Translations under genes and position numbers: made by a program
In this document: positions 6,761 through 30,496 of the stretch, piece after piece
Layout of the letters: the number at the start of each line of letters is the position of its first letter
How positions within the stretch are numbered: position 1 is the stretch's first letter
Source: a virus
Direction: 5' to 3' (one strand)
Virus record (IMG/VR): IMGVR_UViG_3300043436_003416
Location: 1-32,057 of that record
DNA: 32,057 nt
The notes under the pieces: generated by a model
What the model was told of the DNA's origin: nothing
Database searches by the model: none
What the model saw: only the letters and a program-made list of their open reading frames with translations

Positions 6761-8209
6761 ATGCTAGTAGATGCCCAAGTAATATCTCTTTTAAAAAGTA
6801 TTAACAACAGACTCTGTTGTATTAATGGAGGTGATATTCCTCCTATTGATGTCAATATAGTAAGTCCTGATCCTATTAATGTCAATGTAACAAATCCTGA
6901 TGATATTGATGTTAATGTAACAAATAATGTAGATGTTACAGTGACTAACACAGATCCTATTGATGTTAATGTTGTAAATACTTCTACAACTCCTACAGCA
7001 ATTACCTTTGCTCCTTCTGTGGCACAAGATGCTTTTGGAAGACTGAGAGTATCTGGACCATTAACATTATTTGATTCTTCTCATAGATATAAAGATAACG
7101 GTCTCTGGGCTACTTCTACAGCAAGTGGAGGAGCAGCAGTATTTAATGCAAATGAAGGTCTAGTAAACCTTAATGTTAATACTACCAGTGGATCACAAGT
7201 ACTTAGAGAAACCTTTAAAGTATTTTCATATCAACCTGGTAAGAGTTTGTTAGTGCTAAGTACTTTTGTAATGAATCCTGCTCAAACAAACTTAAGACAA
7301 AGAGTAGGATACTTTGGTACACAAAATGGATTATATGTTCAACTAAATGATTCCACTCTTAGCTTTGTTGAAAGAAGTTTGGTTACTGGAGTAGTTACTG
7401 AATCTGTAGTTGATCAATCAGCGTGGAATGTTGATCCCATGGATGGTAGTGGCCCTTCTGGCGTAGTATTAGATATTACAAAAGCTCAGATATTATTTAT
7501 GGATATTGAGTGGTTGGGTCTTGGAACTGTTAGAATGGGGTTTGTTATAGATGGTAATTTTTATGTTTGTCATAATTTTCATCATGCTAATATTATTACT
7601 TCTACCTATATAACTACAGCATCTCTACCTTTAAGATATGAGATTACAAACACTGGAGTAACTGCAAATGCTAGCACATTAAAACAAGTATGTTCTACAG
7701 TAATATCTGAAGGAGGATATGAATTAAGAGGAGCTCAGCAAGCTGTAGGAACACCTATCACAACACCTAAAACATTTGCTGTAGCAGGAACTTATTATCC
7801 AATGGTAGGAATTAGACTTAAAACTACTGCATTAGATGCTATAGTTATAAGTACAGCGGTATCTTTATTAGGAATTGGTAATGGTAAAAATTATGCATGG
7901 AGAATTGTGCAATCTGCTACAACAACAGGAGGATCTTGGGTTTCAGCAGGTACAGATTCATCTGTAGAATATAACCTTACAGGAACATCTGTTACAGGTG
8001 GTAGAGTATTAGCACAAGGATATGTTAATTCTTCTAATCAAGGTTCTCCAAGTATCAATATATTAAAAGAGGCAATATTTGCTAGTCAACTTGAAAGAAA
8101 TTCTTTTACAAGTACACCTCTTGAATTAGTTATTGAAATGGCTATAGATGCAACTGGTGGAACTTTAGGAGCATACGTTTCATTAGATTGGGAAGAAATA
8201 AGTAGATAA
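6761..8209 (+). CDS. Virion structural protein, fibre or baseplate type (482 aa)
   Basis: An N-terminal helix with a twin cysteine (LLKSINNRLCCINGGD, about 10-25) resembles the N-termini of the next two late proteins and probably anchors it to the virion. Residues about 27-73 are short repeats of the type PIDVNVTNPD, likely a beta-rich shaft. Then comes the motif DAFGRLRVSGPLTLFDSSHR (about 90-109), known to me from structural proteins of diverse tailed phages, and a long beta-rich, Thr/Ser-rich body with few charges. These features fit an adhesin or decoration protein on the particle surface. Which structure it joins cannot be told from sequence alone. Confidence 0.8.
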   Translation: MLVDAQVISLLKSINNRLCCINGGDIPPIDVNIVSPDPINVNVTNPDDIDVNVTNNVDVTVTNTDPIDVNVVNTSTTPTAITFAPSVAQDAFGRLRVSGPLTLFDSSHRYKDNGLWATSTASGGAAVFNANEGLVNLNVNTTSGSQVLRETFKVFSYQPGKSLLVLSTFVMNPAQTNLRQRVGYFGTQNGLYVQLNDSTLSFVERSLVTGVVTESVVDQSAWNVDPMDGSGPSGVVLDITKAQILFMDIEWLGLGTVRMGFVIDGNFYVCHNFHHANIITSTYITTASLPLRYEITNTGVTANASTLKQVCSTVISEGGYELRGAQQAVGTPITTPKTFAVAGTYYPMVGIRLKTTALDAIVISTAVSLLGIGNGKNYAWRIVQSATTTGGSWVSAGTDSSVEYNLTGTSVTGGRVLAQGYVNSSNQGSPSINILKEAIFASQLERNSFTSTPLELVIEMAIDATGGTLGAYVSLDWEEISR

Positions 8210-13384: not shown

Positions 13385-13424
13385 AGTAAAAAGCCCCTTT
13401 TTACAGGGGCTTTCTCTTTTTTTT
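13385..13424. terminator. Bidirectional rho-independent terminator
   Basis: An eight-pair hairpin AAAGCCCC/GGGGCTTT (13390-13413) is followed on the plus strand by CTCTTTTTTTT and on the minus strand by TTTTTACTTTTG. It ends the plus-strand late block and the minus-strand VWA gene, which converge here. Confidence 0.92.
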
Positions 13425-14925
13425 AGTTAATCACCTTACCTTCTTCATCCACTTTAAAGATTCTATTACCATCAAAAACAATCACTTGATTTTTGTCTGA
13501 ATATTCTTTTATTATTTCTTTCTGAAAATGATGAAATCTTGCACCCTTTATACCAATAAAGAAAGCTTTATCAGAATAAATGCGACAACAATCTTCTGCA
13601 TCTGTAATTATAAGAGCATTTACACCATTTTGTTCTACTTTATTAATCACTGAATCAATATGAGTGCCACCTCCAGAATCCATCATTGCTATATCAAGTA
13701 TGTTATCTTTAACTTTACGAACTCTTGTGTCAAATTCATAGATTTCATTTAACATATCCATGGATTTCATTTTAGCTGCAAAGCTTTTAGCAAAGTCTAA
13801 CTTATCAATATGATCACCTTTTGAATTTTGGACACCACAACTTTCACCCATTGAACCTGATACATCAATATAAATATCAATTTTACCCATTTTTTGAGTG
13901 TCTTTGATGTTTATATCTTCAATAAAGATTTTACGAAGTTTGGGATGTAGTAGCTCAAATTCATCTAATCCAGCTACATTATCTGAGTTAAGTAGATCTT
14001 CATACTTTACTTTATCTTTTGCACTAAAATAGCTAGTTGATTTATCTAATAGTTTCTTAATTCTATCTTTTAAAGAACCCATTGATAAGCTCAAACTTTC
14101 TAAATTAGCTGCTATATTTTTAAGATAGTCAGGTGTAAGTTTACTTGCATTAGCTTCGCCACCTTTACTTTCTCCACAAGATTCAAATAACTTTTCTTGT
14201 GTATCTTCAGGCATAGCGCCATCCATTTGCTTACAAAGATCTTGGGCTTGTTGCATTGCAGAATCAAGCATAGATTTACCAGTTCTTGAGTTTAACATCT
14301 TATCTAATGTTTTATCAACTCCCTGATTGTCAAAATCATCACCGTTATTCATGCTATTTTCAAGATCTTCAGCAGCTTCAGGATCAGTATATCTAAGCAT
14401 AGTTAATCTAGCTATAAGATAACTAACGATATTGCGAGTGAATATGGCTGACTTTAAATTTGATTTTTCAGTCATCACTTTACCTACAGGATTGTTAGCT
14501 TTTTCAAGAAACTTATACTTTGTATAGTTTCCAGCTTCTCTATCAACAAAATCAAGCTTTTCAATTTTGTTGTAATACATCTTGAATATATCATTAGATA
14601 TATGCTCTGGAAACTCTTCATAAGTTTCTTTAAACTTTTTAGCAAATTCTTCTGGTGCTGGTTTTGAGTCTAAAGCTTTAAATTCACTGTGTGTAGAAAA
14701 TTTCTGAAAATGCTCTGTTATTGTATCTTTACTTGTTAAATGTGTATCAACAATATTATACAAACGATTTTCATCAATGTAATGTAAATAAGGTTTAACA
14801 AGGTCTGGTTTTTTATAGAAGTTAATCTTTCCAAATAAACCATCACTGTCTTTATAATAGCTATCAATTTCACCTTTCTTTACTTTTTCAAGAATAGTAT
14901 ATACATTTTTATATTCTTTTGCCAT
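13423..14925 (-). CDS. VWA-domain protein, partner of MoxR-type ATPase
   Basis: A 500-residue protein with a helical N-terminal region (about 1-340) and a C-terminal von Willebrand A domain. The metal site (MIDAS) is complete: DVSGSMG (354-360), the Thr of GGGTHID (418-424) and TDAED (441-445). In MoxR/VWA pairs (CobS-CobT, RavA-ViaA, NorQ-NorD) the VWA protein brings a substrate to the AAA+ ring for remodelling. The partner gene is directly upstream, separated by a terminator, so levels of the two may differ. Substrate unknown. Confidence 0.88.
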   Translation of the reverse strand: MAKEYKNVYTILEKVKKGEIDSYYKDSDGLFGKINFYKKPDLVKPYLHYIDENRLYNIVDTHLTSKDTITEHFQKFSTHSEFKALDSKPAPEEFAKKFKETYEEFPEHISNDIFKMYYNKIEKLDFVDREAGNYTKYKFLEKANNPVGKVMTEKSNLKSAIFTRNIVSYLIARLTMLRYTDPEAAEDLENSMNNGDDFDNQGVDKTLDKMLNSRTGKSMLDSAMQQAQDLCKQMDGAMPEDTQEKLFESCGESKGGEANASKLTPDYLKNIAANLESLSLSMGSLKDRIKKLLDKSTSYFSAKDKVKYEDLLNSDNVAGLDEFELLHPKLRKIFIEDINIKDTQKMGKIDIYIDVSGSMGESCGVQNSKGDHIDKLDFAKSFAAKMKSMDMLNEIYEFDTRVRKVKDNILDIAMMDSGGGTHIDSVINKVEQNGVNALIITDAEDCCRIYSDKAFFIGIKGARFHHFQKEIIKEYSDKNQVIVFDGNRIFKVDEEGKVIN

Positions 14926-14978: not shown

Positions 14979-16322
14979 TTAGAAAGAACGATCATCTACT
15001 AAAATTTCATCAAATTCTTGAGACAGCTGCTTGTTTTTTCTAGCAGGATGGTTTTCAAGAATATAAGCCATAGAGATTTCTACTTCTTCCACTTGTGTTT
15101 GATCCATAGCACCTCGTGAAGCATATGTATTTACCAAACTCTCAATTTCAGCTACAGCTAGCTCAAGCTCTTCATTAGTATTACGAGAATGTAACATCTC
15201 TACTTTAGACATAACAGCTTTAACTTCTGCACTCATTAGCTTATTTTGAAGTTCGCTTGCTGCTGATTGACTAATCATAATCTGAGCAGTTTTTACAAGA
15301 GCTTTGTCTACACTAACATCCCAAATATAAGAAACAGCTTTAGCCAGTCTAGGTACAAAAGTTAATGTACGATCAGAACTAGCTGCATAACCTACTTCTA
15401 GATATTTGTCAAGCTTGTTAAGAGGAATTTCTACGCTTTCAACTTCTGCACTGTTAGGAATACCAATAGTAAAGTTTTCACGATAGTTACGCGCGCCTTT
15501 AGAATAATACTTAGACATTTCACCAGGTGATACTCGACCTACAGTCATTTTGAGCATAAATCTATCCCAGAATGGAGAATCCATTTCATCTTTTGGAATT
15601 TCATTACAAGTGGCAATGAATAATTTCCATTTACACGGAATCTTATGTTTACCATTAAACAAAAATCTCTCGTTCATTACACCCAACATTGCATTTCTAA
15701 TAGCAGAACTAGCTTTGTCCACCTCGTTAATAATTACAATATCAGCATCTGCAATAGGTGTGTTAAGTTGATACTGATTTTTAGTAAACAATGTATCTAG
15801 ATCAGGCATACCCTTAATTTCGCTTGCCTTGGTGCCTTCATCTGTTTCCAAGATGTACATTTTATTAGCAAAATCATCAGCTGTCATCTTACCATCTTTA
15901 TTAAGCCATGCTTTTGCATACTCAATAATAGTTTTGGTTTTAGCAACACCTGGCTCACCCACTAACAATAAGGGTAAACCTGTAGATTCTGCTAATGCTA
16001 ACATCTTAAATACTTCTTCCTTGTTAATCAAGGATGTCTCAATATGTCTAACTTCTTGTGTTGTACGCTTTGTAATAGTTTTTACCTTACCCATATTTTT
16101 TGTTTTAAAATTTTCTAAAAGTAATTCAGTGCTTAGTTTAGTAGTGTTTTGTACAGGTTGTTGTTGTGTAGGTACTACTTGATTAGTAGGAACCCATCTT
16201 TTTACACCAGAACTATTTGACTGTACTTGCCAAAATCTACCATCATTACCTTGTAATATACTTCCATCTGAATATGCTGTTGCACTAACAGATGGACTTG
16301 GTCTATTTCCTCTATTACTCAT
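14979..16322 (-). CDS. MoxR-type AAA+ ATPase
   Basis: I start at 16322 (MSNRGNRPSP; 447 aa), just after the stop of the upstream gene, instead of an earlier ATG inside that gene. A small N-terminal part has DGRFWQVQSNSSGVKRWVPT, perhaps a substrate-binding module, then a Gln-rich linker. The AAA+ core shows Walker A GEPGVAKT (122-129), Walker B IVIINEVDK (about 195-203), sensor-1 IATCNEIP (about 236-243) and the arginine-finger region SPFWDRF. A helical C-terminal domain follows. With the downstream VWA gene it forms a MoxR-VWA chaperone-like pair; the target could be a phage or host complex. Confidence 0.88.
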   Translation of the reverse strand: MSNRGNRPSPSVSATAYSDGSILQGNDGRFWQVQSNSSGVKRWVPTNQVVPTQQQPVQNTTKLSTELLLENFKTKNMGKVKTITKRTTQEVRHIETSLINKEEVFKMLALAESTGLPLLLVGEPGVAKTKTIIEYAKAWLNKDGKMTADDFANKMYILETDEGTKASEIKGMPDLDTLFTKNQYQLNTPIADADIVIINEVDKASSAIRNAMLGVMNERFLFNGKHKIPCKWKLFIATCNEIPKDEMDSPFWDRFMLKMTVGRVSPGEMSKYYSKGARNYRENFTIGIPNSAEVESVEIPLNKLDKYLEVGYAASSDRTLTFVPRLAKAVSYIWDVSVDKALVKTAQIMISQSAASELQNKLMSAEVKAVMSKVEMLHSRNTNEELELAVAEIESLVNTYASRGAMDQTQVEEVEISMAYILENHPARKNKQLSQEFDEILVDDRSF

Positions 16323-16326
16323 ATTA

Positions 16327-16686
16327 TTATAGTTGGGCAAAAATGTCGACAGCTTCAGATACTGACTCAACTCTATCCAACATTGTTTGTTTACTGACCA
16401 TATCATTCTCTGGTTCTTGTTCACTGTGAATATCTGACCTGGAAGATGTGGATTCGATGGTTTTGGTGGAAGATTCTGTGTCATCTATAATATTAAATAT
16501 AGTTAAAGAAGTATCAGCATCTTTAAGTTTTGGATGTTTTCTAATAGCTGATATTTGCTTTTCATTAGCACCGTATTTTGTTTCTACTGATCCATATCCT
16601 AGATCATCTTTCTTTAACCAAGTTAAACCTTCGCTAAGGTCATTTAATAATTGAGATACTGTTAAATCCACTTTGTTGATAGCCAT
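16327..16686 (-). CDS. Hypothetical protein upstream of MoxR ATPase (119 aa)
   Basis: The N-terminal half (LSEGLTWLKKDDLGYGSVET, then GANEKQISAIRKHPKLK) resembles a small helix-turn-helix with a basic recognition helix. The C-terminal half is Ser/Thr/Glu-rich and probably disordered. The stop is 4 bp before the ATPase start, so the two are likely co-translated. A DNA-binding adaptor for the ATPase is possible; I cannot name a family. Confidence 0.75.
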   Translation of the reverse strand: MAINKVDLTVSQLLNDLSEGLTWLKKDDLGYGSVETKYGANEKQISAIRKHPKLKDADTSLTIFNIIDDTESSTKTIESTSSRSDIHSEQEPENDMVSKQTMLDRVESVSEAVDIFAQL

Positions 16687-17845: not shown

Positions 17846-18194
17846 CTAACGACAATTCGTCTCTAGAACACTCTGCAAAAGATTTAGCAAGAAAGTATTC
17901 TTTACCACTAACTTCTCGCGCTATACACAAGCCTGCTTTATCTTTAACAAGTAGTTTTACATTTTCTACTGTTTCACCTATATGTGTAGCTAATTGTTTA
18001 ATCATTACATGAAGCTTAGCTAATTGTGGTAATGTACCATCGTCATGTGTTGCTTCAAAAAAACATTCTACAATTTGTCCTTCTTCTACATGTGAAACAA
18101 ACATCTCATATTGTTTAGAAGAAGAAAGGCTAGCAAATTCTAGCCTTCCATTCTTCTTAATATATTTACCTACAAAATGTAAGTCTTTTTTCAT
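17793..18194 (-). CDS. NinB-like recombination protein (tentative)
   Basis: A 133-residue protein. The pattern VECFFEATHDDGTLPQLAKL (about 42-61) followed by a helix and LVKDKAGLC (about 82-90) and AECSRDELSLAIQAAIEIG (about 109-127) recalls small phage recombination-mediator-type proteins (NinB/Orf) that bind single-stranded DNA and SSB. The resemblance is weak by eye. It overlaps the SF2 helicase start by 4 bp (ATGA), so the two are translationally coupled, which fits a recombination role. Confidence 0.6.
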   Translation of the reverse strand: MKKDLHFVGKYIKKNGRLEFASLSSSKQYEMFVSHVEEGQIVECFFEATHDDGTLPQLAKLHVMIKQLATHIGETVENVKLLVKDKAGLCIAREVSGKEYFLAKSFAECSRDELSLAIQAAIEIGYQVNYNLQ

Positions 18195-19276
18195 ACATCT
18201 AAATATTTAATTTTAGATTGATCTAAATCTTTAAGAGCTTCATTCACCCATCTCTCGTCAACAGTGTCTTTATAACAAAGAATATGAATAGTAGATGTTT
18301 GGGTGGGATTAAGTCTTAACAGACGACCTATTCTTTGATTTGCTTTACGCTCGTTACCATATGAATGCATAATAATGCCAGCTTCTAAATTAGGTATATT
18401 AACGCCTTCATTTAGTTGCATTACACATGATAATTTTTGAATAGTGCCTTCCTTAAACATTTCAAGATTTTCTTCTGAATCAGAATTATTAGAATGTACA
18501 GAATATTTACAAAGTTTATCTGCTTGTTCTTGAGTATTACAAAACACAATACATTTCTGTTTAATGTGATTTAATAACTCTTTAGCATACACTTCTTTTG
18601 TTTTATATTCCATGATAGCTTTCATACGCATAATAGAAGCAATTTGCTCTTGCTTTTTAGTCTCTGCTTCCATTATTCTTTTATTTTGGTAAGCATAGTT
18701 TTTTACTTCTGACGTATAAAAGTTATTATTCTTAAATTGTACATGAATATTATTTTCACTTGAAAGAGACATTCTATGTACAATAATTCTGTAATCATTT
18801 AAAATATCATCTCCTACAGCTTCATCTGTAATATAGTTATACATAATAGGGCAGTATTGAGAAACCATTTCACCTTTTTCAGATTTATGATATCTAGGAG
18901 GTGTACCTGTTAAACCCAATATTCTACCATTAAACATTTTTAGAAAAATATCATGTGTATATAACAAACTATGACATTCATCTAAAACTATTAGATTAAA
19001 CTCAGAAGGATTATATTTATTTAAAGAAAGATAAGTGGTAAATTGAACATTGTCAATGTTAATGTTAAATCTTTTCGCATCATCAATCCAAGATTGAAAA
19101 ATAGAAAGTTTAGGAGCTATTACAAGAGCTTTAACATTTGTTTTATTTTGCCAATAATCAATATATTTAAGACCAATGAGGGTTTTACCAACCCCCATTG
19201 ATATTCCTAAACCACATTTTCTATGCTTAAGTGCAATGTTTAATGCTTCTTGCTGGACTTGCTCTCTTTTATTCAT
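18191..19276 (-). CDS. SF2 DNA helicase, UvsW-like
   Basis: A 361-residue superfamily 2 helicase with both RecA-like lobes. Motifs: Walker A SMGVGKT (26-32), motif Ia VIAPKLSIFQSW (52-63), DECH box (99-102), motif III LTGTPPR (122-128), motif IV IVFCNTQEQA (243-252), VMQLNEGVNIP (285-295) and motif VI NQRIGRLLR (313-321). The size is that of small phage UvsW-like enzymes that move replication forks or branch-migrate recombination intermediates. The start overlaps the previous stop by one base (TAATG type junction). Confidence 0.9.
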   Translation of the reverse strand: MNKREQVQQEALNIALKHRKCGLGISMGVGKTLIGLKYIDYWQNKTNVKALVIAPKLSIFQSWIDDAKRFNINIDNVQFTTYLSLNKYNPSEFNLIVLDECHSLLYTHDIFLKMFNGRILGLTGTPPRYHKSEKGEMVSQYCPIMYNYITDEAVGDDILNDYRIIVHRMSLSSENNIHVQFKNNNFYTSEVKNYAYQNKRIMEAETKKQEQIASIMRMKAIMEYKTKEVYAKELLNHIKQKCIVFCNTQEQADKLCKYSVHSNNSDSEENLEMFKEGTIQKLSCVMQLNEGVNIPNLEAGIIMHSYGNERKANQRIGRLLRLNPTQTSTIHILCYKDTVDERWVNEALKDLDQSKIKYLDV

Positions 19277-24909: not shown

Positions 24910-25299
24910 TTAATTAAGTCTTGAGTTACTTAAATTTAGTTCTTTAGCTTCCAAAGGGTTGGTTTCTATCCAAGAATGACATGTTCTACATACAGACAAC
25001 CACGTACTCATTTTTAAATAGTTATCCCCTGTTCTTCCTTCTTTATGATGTACATCAGTAGATGCACCTGTACAACCAACAAGTTTTGCTTGACAGTTAG
25101 GATTAGCAATTAAAAATATGTTGCGTTTCTTAGAATACTCATCCATTTCCACCTGCCTCTTTTTAGAGACAGGGGAAATAGATTTTGGTTTTTCTATGGA
25201 ATACCAACATTCTTTACAATACTTTTCTTTACCATGTGATTTCCAAATGTGTTTTTCTTTTTCACATTTGGCACATTTTTTAAGTTTTGCCTTAATCAT
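24910..25299 (-). CDS. Zinc-finger HNH nuclease, NinG-like
   Basis: A 129-residue protein. A zinc ribbon is formed by CAKC (Cys9, Cys12) and CKEC (Cys28, Cys31). The nuclease part shows DVHHKEGRTGDNYLKMSTW (82-100), then CRTCHSWIETNP (104-115), giving the histidine pair and second CxxCH. NinG-type proteins help phage recombination by cutting DNA. It overlaps the upstream gene's start region by one base. It is the second HNH protein in the window and is not closely similar to the first. Confidence 0.85.
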   Translation of the reverse strand: MIKAKLKKCAKCEKEKHIWKSHGKEKYCKECWYSIEKPKSISPVSKKRQVEMDEYSKKRNIFLIANPNCQAKLVGCTGASTDVHHKEGRTGDNYLKMSTWLSVCRTCHSWIETNPLEAKELNLSNSRLN

Positions 25300-25814
25300 T
25301 ATGCTAAATTAAAAAAGTTTTCTGGTAAAACCTTGTATTGTACAAGTCTTTTTGCCAAGCTTTCAGAAGTGATTTTCAGGTCTTTTAGAGATAATGGAAT
25401 TTTTACAGATGTATCAACTCCTTTAACATCTATCAGAGCTTTAGCAATTTTTGATTTTGGAAATAATTTAGAAAGAAACCCGTCTATATTAGCATTAGCA
25501 ATTTCAAGTTTATAAGCGTTAATGACTTCTTTTGCATGTGCATGTATAGATTGAATTCTTTTAATGTGATGAGGACGCATTTCCATAATTACCTCATTTG
25601 AATAAGCTTTAAATCCATAAACAGCTTCATTGTAAAGTTTTAATTGAGCTCTATTAAACTCAAACAACTTCTGTTGATAACGTGCGTTACCATTGATTTG
25701 TGTTGATTTAACAACTTCTCTTTTAGGTTCATAATTAAGAAAATGACGTTTTTTGTCATCATAACTAATTAAAATACCTCTAGAGTTTGAATTGATTGAT
25801 TTGTTTGGATTCAT
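25299..25814 (-). CDS. Hypothetical protein (171 aa)
   Basis: Begins MNPNKSINSNSRGILISYDD; basic, helical middle (FNRAQLKLYNEAVYGFKAYS about 53-72; HHIKRIQSIHAHAKEVINAY about 82-101) and a C-terminal part with KVLPENFFNLA at the end. The basic helical part may bind nucleic acid. It is the first gene after a terminator and its stop overlaps the HNH start by one base, so the two share a transcript. Family not recognised. Confidence 0.75.
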   Translation of the reverse strand: MNPNKSINSNSRGILISYDDKKRHFLNYEPKREVVKSTQINGNARYQQKLFEFNRAQLKLYNEAVYGFKAYSNEVIMEMRPHHIKRIQSIHAHAKEVINAYKLEIANANIDGFLSKLFPKSKIAKALIDVKGVDTSVKIPLSLKDLKITSESLAKRLVQYKVLPENFFNLA

Positions 25815-27505: not shown

Positions 27506-28039
27506 TTAATCCCACCAAGTTTCTATATACTCGTTGAGAAGTTTAAATAAAAGTTGTTTAGCTCTTTTGTGGTTTTCCCATGACATATGCATAGCAATGT
27601 ATGACTTGTCTTCTTTTCTTAACATCACTCTATTTATTTTTAGCACTTTTTTATAAACAAGAGGATATTTTTTAAAGTAGTCATTATAGTTTTCTGATAA
27701 TTCTTCTATACGAAGTTGTTTATGATCTGGCATATCTGGCACATCATCAAAATGAAATACAGATTCTTGATAATCCATATGTTCCATATGATAAAATTCA
27801 TCTTTTACTTTCTGTATAAGACGAACACATGTCATCATTCTTTCTGCATCTCTATGAGCATCTAAATGACGACTTTTTTCTTTAATGTATTTAGCTTGTT
27901 TTATAAGCTTTTTTTCTAGTATGATCCATATATAATAATCATCCCAGTCTTTGTCTTTCCAGATAGTTTTAAACCAATAAATTAGATTTTTTACACTTTC
28001 AATAAATGTTTTAATAGAGTATTTGATGTCTTTATACAT
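27506..28039 (-). CDS. Hypothetical helical protein, common phage type (177 aa)
   Basis: A helical protein with DWDDYYIWIILEKKLIKQAK (about 31-50), DAERMMTCVRLIQKVKDEFY (about 64-83) and the end LLFKLLNEYIETWWD. The pattern 'kL..qa..i......r.m..ci.Li.k...ef......WWD' is one I associate with widely distributed phage proteins of unknown function. It is the first gene downstream of the tmRNA terminator. Leader: AATAATTAGTTATG, a relative of the recurring junction. Confidence 0.78.
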   Translation of the reverse strand: MYKDIKYSIKTFIESVKNLIYWFKTIWKDKDWDDYYIWIILEKKLIKQAKYIKEKSRHLDAHRDAERMMTCVRLIQKVKDEFYHMEHMDYQESVFHFDDVPDMPDHKQLRIEELSENYNDYFKKYPLVYKKVLKINRVMLRKEDKSYIAMHMSWENHKRAKQLLFKLLNEYIETWWD

Positions 28040-28085: not shown

Positions 28086-28112
28086 GTTGCTAACCTATGA
28101 AAAACACCTTAG

Positions 28113-28505
28113 TGGACCTGAGGGGAGTCGAACCCCTGTCCAAACAAATTACCAATAACACCATTCTTACATGCTTAGTCAATCTATAGCTTGACAACTA
28201 TGTACTAAAAGTCAAGGTTTAACTTTACTTTTTGCACCGTATGGGTAAATAGCCCAGTTGCTCCACCACTTGATTTTATGACTATCAAGAAAACTATTAC
28301 TATTTTCTGTTGCTAAGCATAGATGCTCCCTTAACTTAAGCTAATTCAAGCTCAGAACCTTCAAGCTCTGCTACGAGAGACTCAAAAGTGTAGTTAGAAA
28401 GTTCAACTGTTGTGTTGTCCTTTGTGATTAACCAATTGGTTTGAGTATTGGCTACCTCTTGCATGTGATGCTACCTGTTCTTTGCTGTCAAATCCAGGCA
28501 GGCCC
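28113..28505 (-). ncRNA. ssrA: Transfer-messenger RNA (tmRNA)
   Basis: A 393-nt tmRNA that would rescue stalled ribosomes. The tRNA-like part is complete: acceptor GGGCCTG at the 5' end pairs with CAGGTCC at the 3' end, with the G3-U70 pair that specifies alanine; T arm AGGGG-TTCGACT-CCCCT; D-region CTGGATTTGACAG near the 5' end. The stretch GACTAAGCATGTA upstream of the T arm is identical to that of Escherichia coli tmRNA. The resume codon GCA (28371-28369) follows CGTA and opens the tag AELEGSELELA, ended by TAA (28338-28336). CCA is not encoded (ACT follows), so it must be added. The tag does not end in the usual ALAA. The gene lies 5 bp after a tRNA-like gene and ends before a terminator. 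Confidence 0.96.
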
Positions 28506-28510
28506 ATTAG

Positions 28511-28579
28511 TAGTCAGGATAGGAATCGAACCTACTATCTCCCTTTTGATCAGTTGCGTCTCCAATACGCCACCTAACT
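28511..28579 (-). tRNA. tRNA-like gene with abnormal anticodon arm
   Basis: Acceptor AGTTAGG/CCTGACT pairs fully (one G-U), D arm GCGT-ATTGGAG-ACGC is perfect, and T arm GTAGG-TTCGATT-CCTAT is canonical with one G-U. Between the D and T stems only 20 bases remain (22-23 are needed) and they do not form a five-pair stem with a seven-base loop, so no anticodon can be assigned. Discriminator A; CCA not encoded. Only five bases separate it from the tmRNA, so it may be a decayed tRNA kept as a processing signal. Confidence 0.6.
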
Positions 28580-29719: not shown

Positions 29720-30496
29720 TTAAGAAAGCTTTTCAAATAACTGAGATAATTTACCTTCTTCTTGTGTTGCAAGAATAAATTTATCTTTGTTTTTAGAAAG
29801 CTTTGTCAAAAATAGTTTATGATCATATTTAGGTGTAGATCTCAAAAACTTTACAAATTCTCTAATAACATATCTGTTTTCAAATCTGTTCATTCTTGGT
29901 ACCACCTTCAGCACATCTGTAGCATAATTAAGAATTGCTACATTTTTTTCTTCGTTATTGATTTTAAATTCACCTGATTTGAGAATTTTAGCAAGATTAC
30001 CACCACCTGCACTATTACCCATCAGAATTGCAGCTAAATCTGTTATTTCAAGATCATAAACTTGAAAATAATGATTAAGTTTTACATAATCATTTTTTAA
30101 ACTTGACCATGCTGTAACATAATCTTGCATAGTCCATGTTTTAGAACTAGCATTCAACATTGCTATTTTCTCTACAAGATCTTGTTTGTTTTCCACTTGT
30201 ATGGTTACATATGGAATTTCCCAACCAAGTCTAATAAGAGCATTAAAAATGTGCTGTCCATCAACAATATATTTACCTGGTTTACCATTAACAAATGATA
30301 ATTCAGCTATAACAACAGGTCTGATAATACCCATCATTTCTAATGACTTAGCAAGTTTAGTCACTTGACCAGGATTAATAGATCGATTAATACCTGCGAG
30401 ATAACTAAATTTAATATTACCTGTTAAAGAAAGCCATTTAATGTTTTTTAATGCTTCTTTATGAAACTGTTTTGCTGTTGCAATTTTTGTAGCCAT
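29720..30496 (-). CDS. ParB-like protein (258 aa)
   Basis: The N-terminal third is a ParB/sulfiredoxin-like fold: INRSINPGQVTKLAKSLEMM (36-55), GIIRPVVIAEL (about 56-66) and YIVDGQHIFNALIRLGWEIP (75-94). The usual GERR motif of true ParB is replaced by DGQH, typical of phage members of unknown activity (nuclease or CTPase-like). The rest is helical with FENRYVIREFVKFLRS (about 207-222). It lies directly before structured RNA region 1, and its stop is 1 bp from it. A role in DNA handling or regulation is likely, not proven. Confidence 0.82.
   Translation of the reverse strand: MATKIATAKQFHKEALKNIKWLSLTGNIKFSYLAGINRSINPGQVTKLAKSLEMMGIIRPVVIAELSFVNGKPGKYIVDGQHIFNALIRLGWEIPYVTIQVENKQDLVEKIAMLNASSKTWTMQDYVTAWSSLKNDYVKLNHYFQVYDLEITDLAAILMGNSAGGGNLAKILKSGEFKINNEEKNVAILNYATDVLKVVPRMNRFENRYVIREFVKFLRSTPKYDHKLFLTKLSKNKDKFILATQEEGKLSQLFEKLS

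Follow-up and report, generated by a model that had tools for sequence, protein, structure and literature searches.

One survey found tmRNAs in 402 phage genomes (PMC9004378), and those of mycobacteriophages and of Bacillus phage G are included in the tmRNA Website update (PMC4131195). As a rule such RNAs are recorded in phages without receiving further attention. The tmRNA of Bxz1-type (cluster C) mycobacteriophages carries the tag ATDTDATVTDAEIEAFFAEEAAALV, which, like the one described here, is phage-encoded, acidic (25 aa) and without an Ala-Ala end; however, it ends in ALV and has no recognisable sequence relation to ours, and the hosts differ. Mesoplasma florum reportedly has an ssrA tag of 27 aa that is read by Lon, a finding for which PMC11986505 cites Gur and Sauer 2008. 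That tag is likewise long with a non-ALAA end and shows that the protease specificity of a tag can switch, but it is bacterial, comes from a lineage without ClpXP and is unlike ours in sequence. Within the Crassvirales, tmRNAs are annotated in the crAss-like phages cr7_1 and cr124_1; their TLD end is similar to ours, whereas ARAGORN reads them as permuted genes with a 13-aa tag, (D/G)NVNNIVDYTNVA, unlike the tag here. Phage tmRNAs and long tags are thus already known; what is new is that a whole phage group conserves long tags and that one of its branches has a changed terminus. Our literature search on the tags of this group found no paper, which is not proof of absence.

The window that we analysed is a 32,057-base virus record from an uncultured phage, a fragment of its genome. 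With bacterial one-piece tmRNAs (RF00023) its tmRNA has in common a TLD with G3-U70, the pseudoknot PK1, a resume codon soon after PK1 and a stop-ended frame. It differs in its tag, which has 27 aa and ends in LA (usually 9-10 aa in Bacteroidota, ending in AA), and in its covariance score, 80 bits as against about 120-200 among the Bacteroidota matches listed.

Identity and architecture of the tmRNA gene

The features on which the argument rests are:

28110..28505, minus strand: tmRNA (ssrA) gene, from Rfam RF00023 and ARAGORN (28112-28505)
28429..28458, minus strand: pseudoknot PK1 (GAG/CTC plus TAGCCAAT/ATTGGTTA), upstream of the tag, from reading of the sequence and a single-strand fold
28336..28419, minus strand: tag reading frame, GAC...GCT TAA, DNTTVELSNYTFESLVAELEGSELELA*, from the alignment with relatives (common start column, coding-type substitutions)
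28369..28371, minus strand: GCA after CGTA, earlier taken for the resume codon, internal codon 17 by orthologue comparison
28337..28354, minus strand: short hairpin of the ELELA codons and the first stop bases (TGAGCTTGAATTAGCTTA), from single-sequence folds
29720..30496, minus strand: ParB-like gene (phrog_12305, E 4.7e-16), near the tmRNA in relatives and used to find them

The cmscan search found a single tmRNA in the window (80.4 bits, E 6.8e-30), with an untruncated match that covers positions 1-374 of the model and lies well above the gathering cut-off of 47 bits. The covariance search that the first-pass annotation had proposed thus bears out its claim of a whole tmRNA, and ARAGORN agrees; the phage origin also holds, and the limits given there, 28113-28505, describe the same gene but are off by 1-3 bases at one end. 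Its reading of the two ends of the molecule stands as well: the acceptor GGGCCTG/CAGGTCC is paired at 7/7 positions, G3-U70 included, the canonical T arm has a 5/5 paired stem, and the 13-base stretch GACTAAGCATGTA is present. The 3' tail is ACTA, so that CCA is not encoded and is presumably added post-transcriptionally.

Contigs with orthologues were found through the ParB-like gene and the gene at 27506-28039. Rfam detects tmRNAs in many of these contigs, and two DNA patterns added further ones; two DNA patterns taken from the window tmRNA had no match in viral contigs, and a search with the gene at 25299-25814 gave no relatives. In all 20 phage tmRNAs compared (the window and 19 relatives) the acceptor is paired 7/7 and the T stem 5/5 despite two-sided changes, with acceptors that include GGGCCTG/CAGGTCC, GGGGGTG/CACCTCC, GGGGATG/CATCTCC and GGGCCCG/CGGGTCC, and G3-U70 is kept throughout. 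Two-sided changes around a constant G3-U70 are, at the level of sequence, the pattern expected under selection for alanylation. PK1-like pairings are readable in the relatives too, and the rescue machinery of the window tmRNA is well supported at sequence level.

The tmRNAs of L032, L004 and the window appear mosaic: L032 has its 5' PK1 part in common with L004 and its middle part with the window, and its tag is of the other type, which suggests recombination inside the tmRNA gene. Right before the tmRNA (28510-28579, minus strand) lies a decayed or aberrant tRNA with a good acceptor and T arm, a broken anticodon arm and an enlarged loop; L004 has an intact tRNA-Ile(GAT) at the matching position.

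Start, length and conservation of the tag

Conservation places the resume codon at GAC (28419-28417), 9 nt past PK1. Eighteen distinct phage tags were readable, the window's and 17 others in orthologous tmRNAs (L237 was left out of the set for its ambiguous start), and 14 of them were aligned codon by codon. The start column common to these 14 lies 86-94 nt from the 5' end and is a codon with first base G and with AA at -4/-3. In a first set, composed of the window and six relatives of ELSxYT/ELSxMT type, differences at codon positions 1/2/3 number 78/50/144 over the 16 codons before the internal GCA, with a pN/pS of 0.54, as against 1.02 and 3.6 in the two alternative frames and 0.9-1.1 in the 30 nt upstream of the new start. 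A second set of seven tags, of RVAEGEAIL type, gives 61/73/117 and 0.61. The counts were taken over pairs of related sequences, so the events are not independent; both sets agree in direction. Codons 1-16 thus evolve as coding sequence, and the 30 nt before GAC do not. From the common start column and the coding-type substitutions we conclude that the tag starts at GAC and reads DNTTVELSNYTFESLVAELEGSELELA, 27 aa with a net charge of -7, its frame closing with ...GSELELA-TAA.

Two shorter tags, one starting at GCA (the 11-residue AELEGSELELA of the first-pass annotation, argued from a likeness of CGTA-GCA to resume sites of some bacteria) and one starting at GAA (22 aa, the ARAGORN output on the window), are highly improbable and were rejected: a start at GCA (28371-28369) would be 48 nt too distant from PK1, the codons upstream of it are under coding selection, the GTA preceding it is lost in relatives (CTT, TTT, ATG), and ARAGORN itself uses the upstream start column in L004, L006, L032 and L224. 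AELEGSELELA is accordingly the last 11 of 27 residues, and its GCA is codon 17. For L004, ARAGORN calls the tag DNTTVELSDYTFESLLAELETSELELA; its 22-aa tag on the window is truncated. That call being wrong by several residues, automatic calls need comparative checking.

What the shorter reading had missed is the N-terminal half, DNTTVELSNYTFESL, which is conserved at the residue level across phages, with the pattern VELS..TFES or, in relatives, RVAEGEAIL. The acidity and the ELELA ending that it did describe are real, and four phages have this ending, L004, L212 and L224 besides the window. Tags of the phage group have 24-33 aa (median 27, 18 distinct sequences). Two further long tags were read in L218, a contig of 204,454 bases (AKSEFDFAPSVAEADAFLKAAGFVDAELLAA, 31 aa), and in L245 (AKTSNKVVSIFAKRPAQPALALAA, 24 aa).

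For comparison we used 92 tmRNAs from a survey of 198 Bacteroidota genomes. ARAGORN gave a tag for 90 of them, with 9 aa in 49 cases, 10 aa in 39 (together 88/90), 14 aa in one and 33 aa in another. The ending ELELA is, as had been remarked, unlike that of bacterial tags, 89/90 of which end in Ala-Ala here; the lone 33-aa tag, ending in PPFR, was taken as an apparent ARAGORN miscall. Median net charge is -1 in the bacteria as against -6 to -8 in the window's group. The phage tags are about two to three times as long as these Bacteroidota tags, whose group may not be the host's, and length together with the conserved N-terminal half separates the window tag most clearly from them.

The tag terminus and the fate of tagged proteins

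Most relatives end their tags in an ALAA-like way (ELALAA, EYALAA, EVAVAA, EVAIAA, YQMAA), and one branch has no Ala-Ala: ELELA in the four phages named above, ELALA in L006 and AVLA in L005 and L199. L243 bridges the two types, with an N-terminal half as in this branch and the end EAIAA. With ALAA-like ends prevailing among the relatives, weak degradation is not general to the phage group. In E. coli the main ClpX determinant is Ala-Ala-COO-, and changing either alanine raises the KM of ClpXP with little effect on Vmax (PMC7652416). The window tag, ending in ELELA, lacks this terminal Ala-Ala of the ssrA degron, and its Leu-Ala end and nearby acidic residues would make it a weaker ClpXP signal; a change of the penultimate alanine raises KM and is not known to abolish recognition, the data being for E. 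coli ClpX.

SmpB, ClpP and Lon (Lon_C) were not found in the 114-125 kb relatives, which to judge by their likeness in size are near-complete genomes, and host SmpB and proteases presumably serve the phage tmRNA. PF01668 (smpB) matched none of the 62-161 kb relatives that were searched, and the jumbo phage G015 was the only one with a hit; the window covers just part of its genome. The ClpX zinc finger was absent from the four records searched. G015 (L031, a contig of 320,934 bases) carries a tmRNA at 17972-18385 with a probable 26-aa tag, GASYITADGDIVLNGQPVEVAEPAFA, full-length SmpB (303975-304382) and ClpP (43552-44079), and a second ClpP-like gene, a nearly complete set for trans-translation and proteolysis.

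We consider it probable that the window tmRNA is a functional one-piece molecule that rescues ribosomes in the normal way, its phage-specific tag being a poorer signal for ClpXP. The RNA architecture, the alanine identity, the frame and start of the tag and the absence of SmpB, ClpP and Lon from the 114-125 kb relatives are indicated by the comparisons above. Host AlaRS would alanylate the tmRNA through G3-U70 and CCA would be added, after which host SmpB and EF-Tu would accompany the RNA into stalled ribosomes. There translation would resume at GAC, adding the alanine and the 27-residue acidic tag, and terminate at UAA. It may be active during infection, chiefly recycling ribosomes held on cut or unfinished mRNAs, and the tagged chains, poorer ClpXP substrates than host-tagged ones, would decay more slowly or pass to another host protease. 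The conservation of the N-terminal half (VELS..TFES / RVAEGEAIL) suggests a second function, perhaps binding of a host adaptor, on the model of SspB and AANDENY in E. coli (PMC8512704), or some other tuning of degradation.

Tentatively, the long acidic tag class may even have evolved in this phage group so as to redirect rescued chains away from host ClpXP, or towards a particular host adaptor or protease, a possibility on which we lean towards doubt. If it were true, the phage would free ribosomes and at the same time control how truncated proteins, both its own and the host's, are dealt with, and the long tags of unrelated phages (25 aa in the Bxz1 type, 26 aa in G015) would be convergent. 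The whole group keeps a long tag under coding selection and one branch lacks the residues that ClpX reads, which raises a testable question: does the phage substitute the RNA alone, or also what becomes of rescued proteins? For the four ELELA phages, the earlier suggestions (a different protease, slower decay, or ribosome release that spares the products) seem reasonable, given that ClpX recognition is mostly through Ala-Ala-COO- (PMC7652416); the wider group is mostly ALAA-like.

It is rather unlikely that ELELA is an ordinary degradation signal, which host ClpX, or some other protease of the host, would read roughly as well as it reads ALAA, with its oddness due to the hairpin at the stop codon. 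The last five codons, GAGCTTGAATTAGCTTAA, are identical in DNA in the four ELELA phages while the remaining tag diverges, and they form a hairpin with the stop codon, so that RNA structure may share responsibility for them; the mostly ALAA-like ends of the relatives also fit this reading. However, single-sequence folds give relatives a comparable tag-end hairpin, and those relatives keep AA where all ELELA, ELALA and AVLA members have lost it. The residue-level conservation of the N-terminal half across phages could also reflect a dedicated phage adaptor or protease that reads the tag, which we regard as quite improbable, the relatives having neither ClpP nor Lon, and adaptors not being recognisable by sequence here. 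That the RNA no longer tags and titrates SmpB as a decoy, for which the group's lack of SmpB and the proposal made for mycobacteriophage DS6A, whose gene has the TLD only (PMC4131195), might speak, is more improbable still and was rejected, the entire mRNA-like part and the tag frame being kept under coding selection.

Host affiliation and other genes of the window

A Bacteroidota host was at first assumed from the helicases, whose relatives are crAss-like, in phages of Flavobacterium and Bacteroides; it was no longer taken as settled after the terminase of the relative L009 proved nearest to that of Leptolyngbya phage Lbo-JY46 (49%). Lbo-JY46 itself has just two genes in common with the window, at about 25%, and no tmRNA. 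The psbA gene is absent from 12 phage records, and the ParB profile had no match among genome contigs and hence gave no host link. Bacteroidota and cyanobacteria are both candidate host groups.

Two adjoining genes on the minus strand (13423-14925 and 14979-16484) encode a bpMoxR-type AAA ATPase (PF20030) and a protein of 500 aa in which a VWA-like DVSGSMG motif can be read by eye and which has no Pfam match; they are possibly a MoxR-VWA pair in a phage. On the plus strand, the virion structural protein at 6761-8209 shares about 65% identity with proteins of cyanophages and Puniceispirillum phage over 400 aa, a similarity far above that of the rest of the window to any phage tested, which points to a recent transfer or domain swap.
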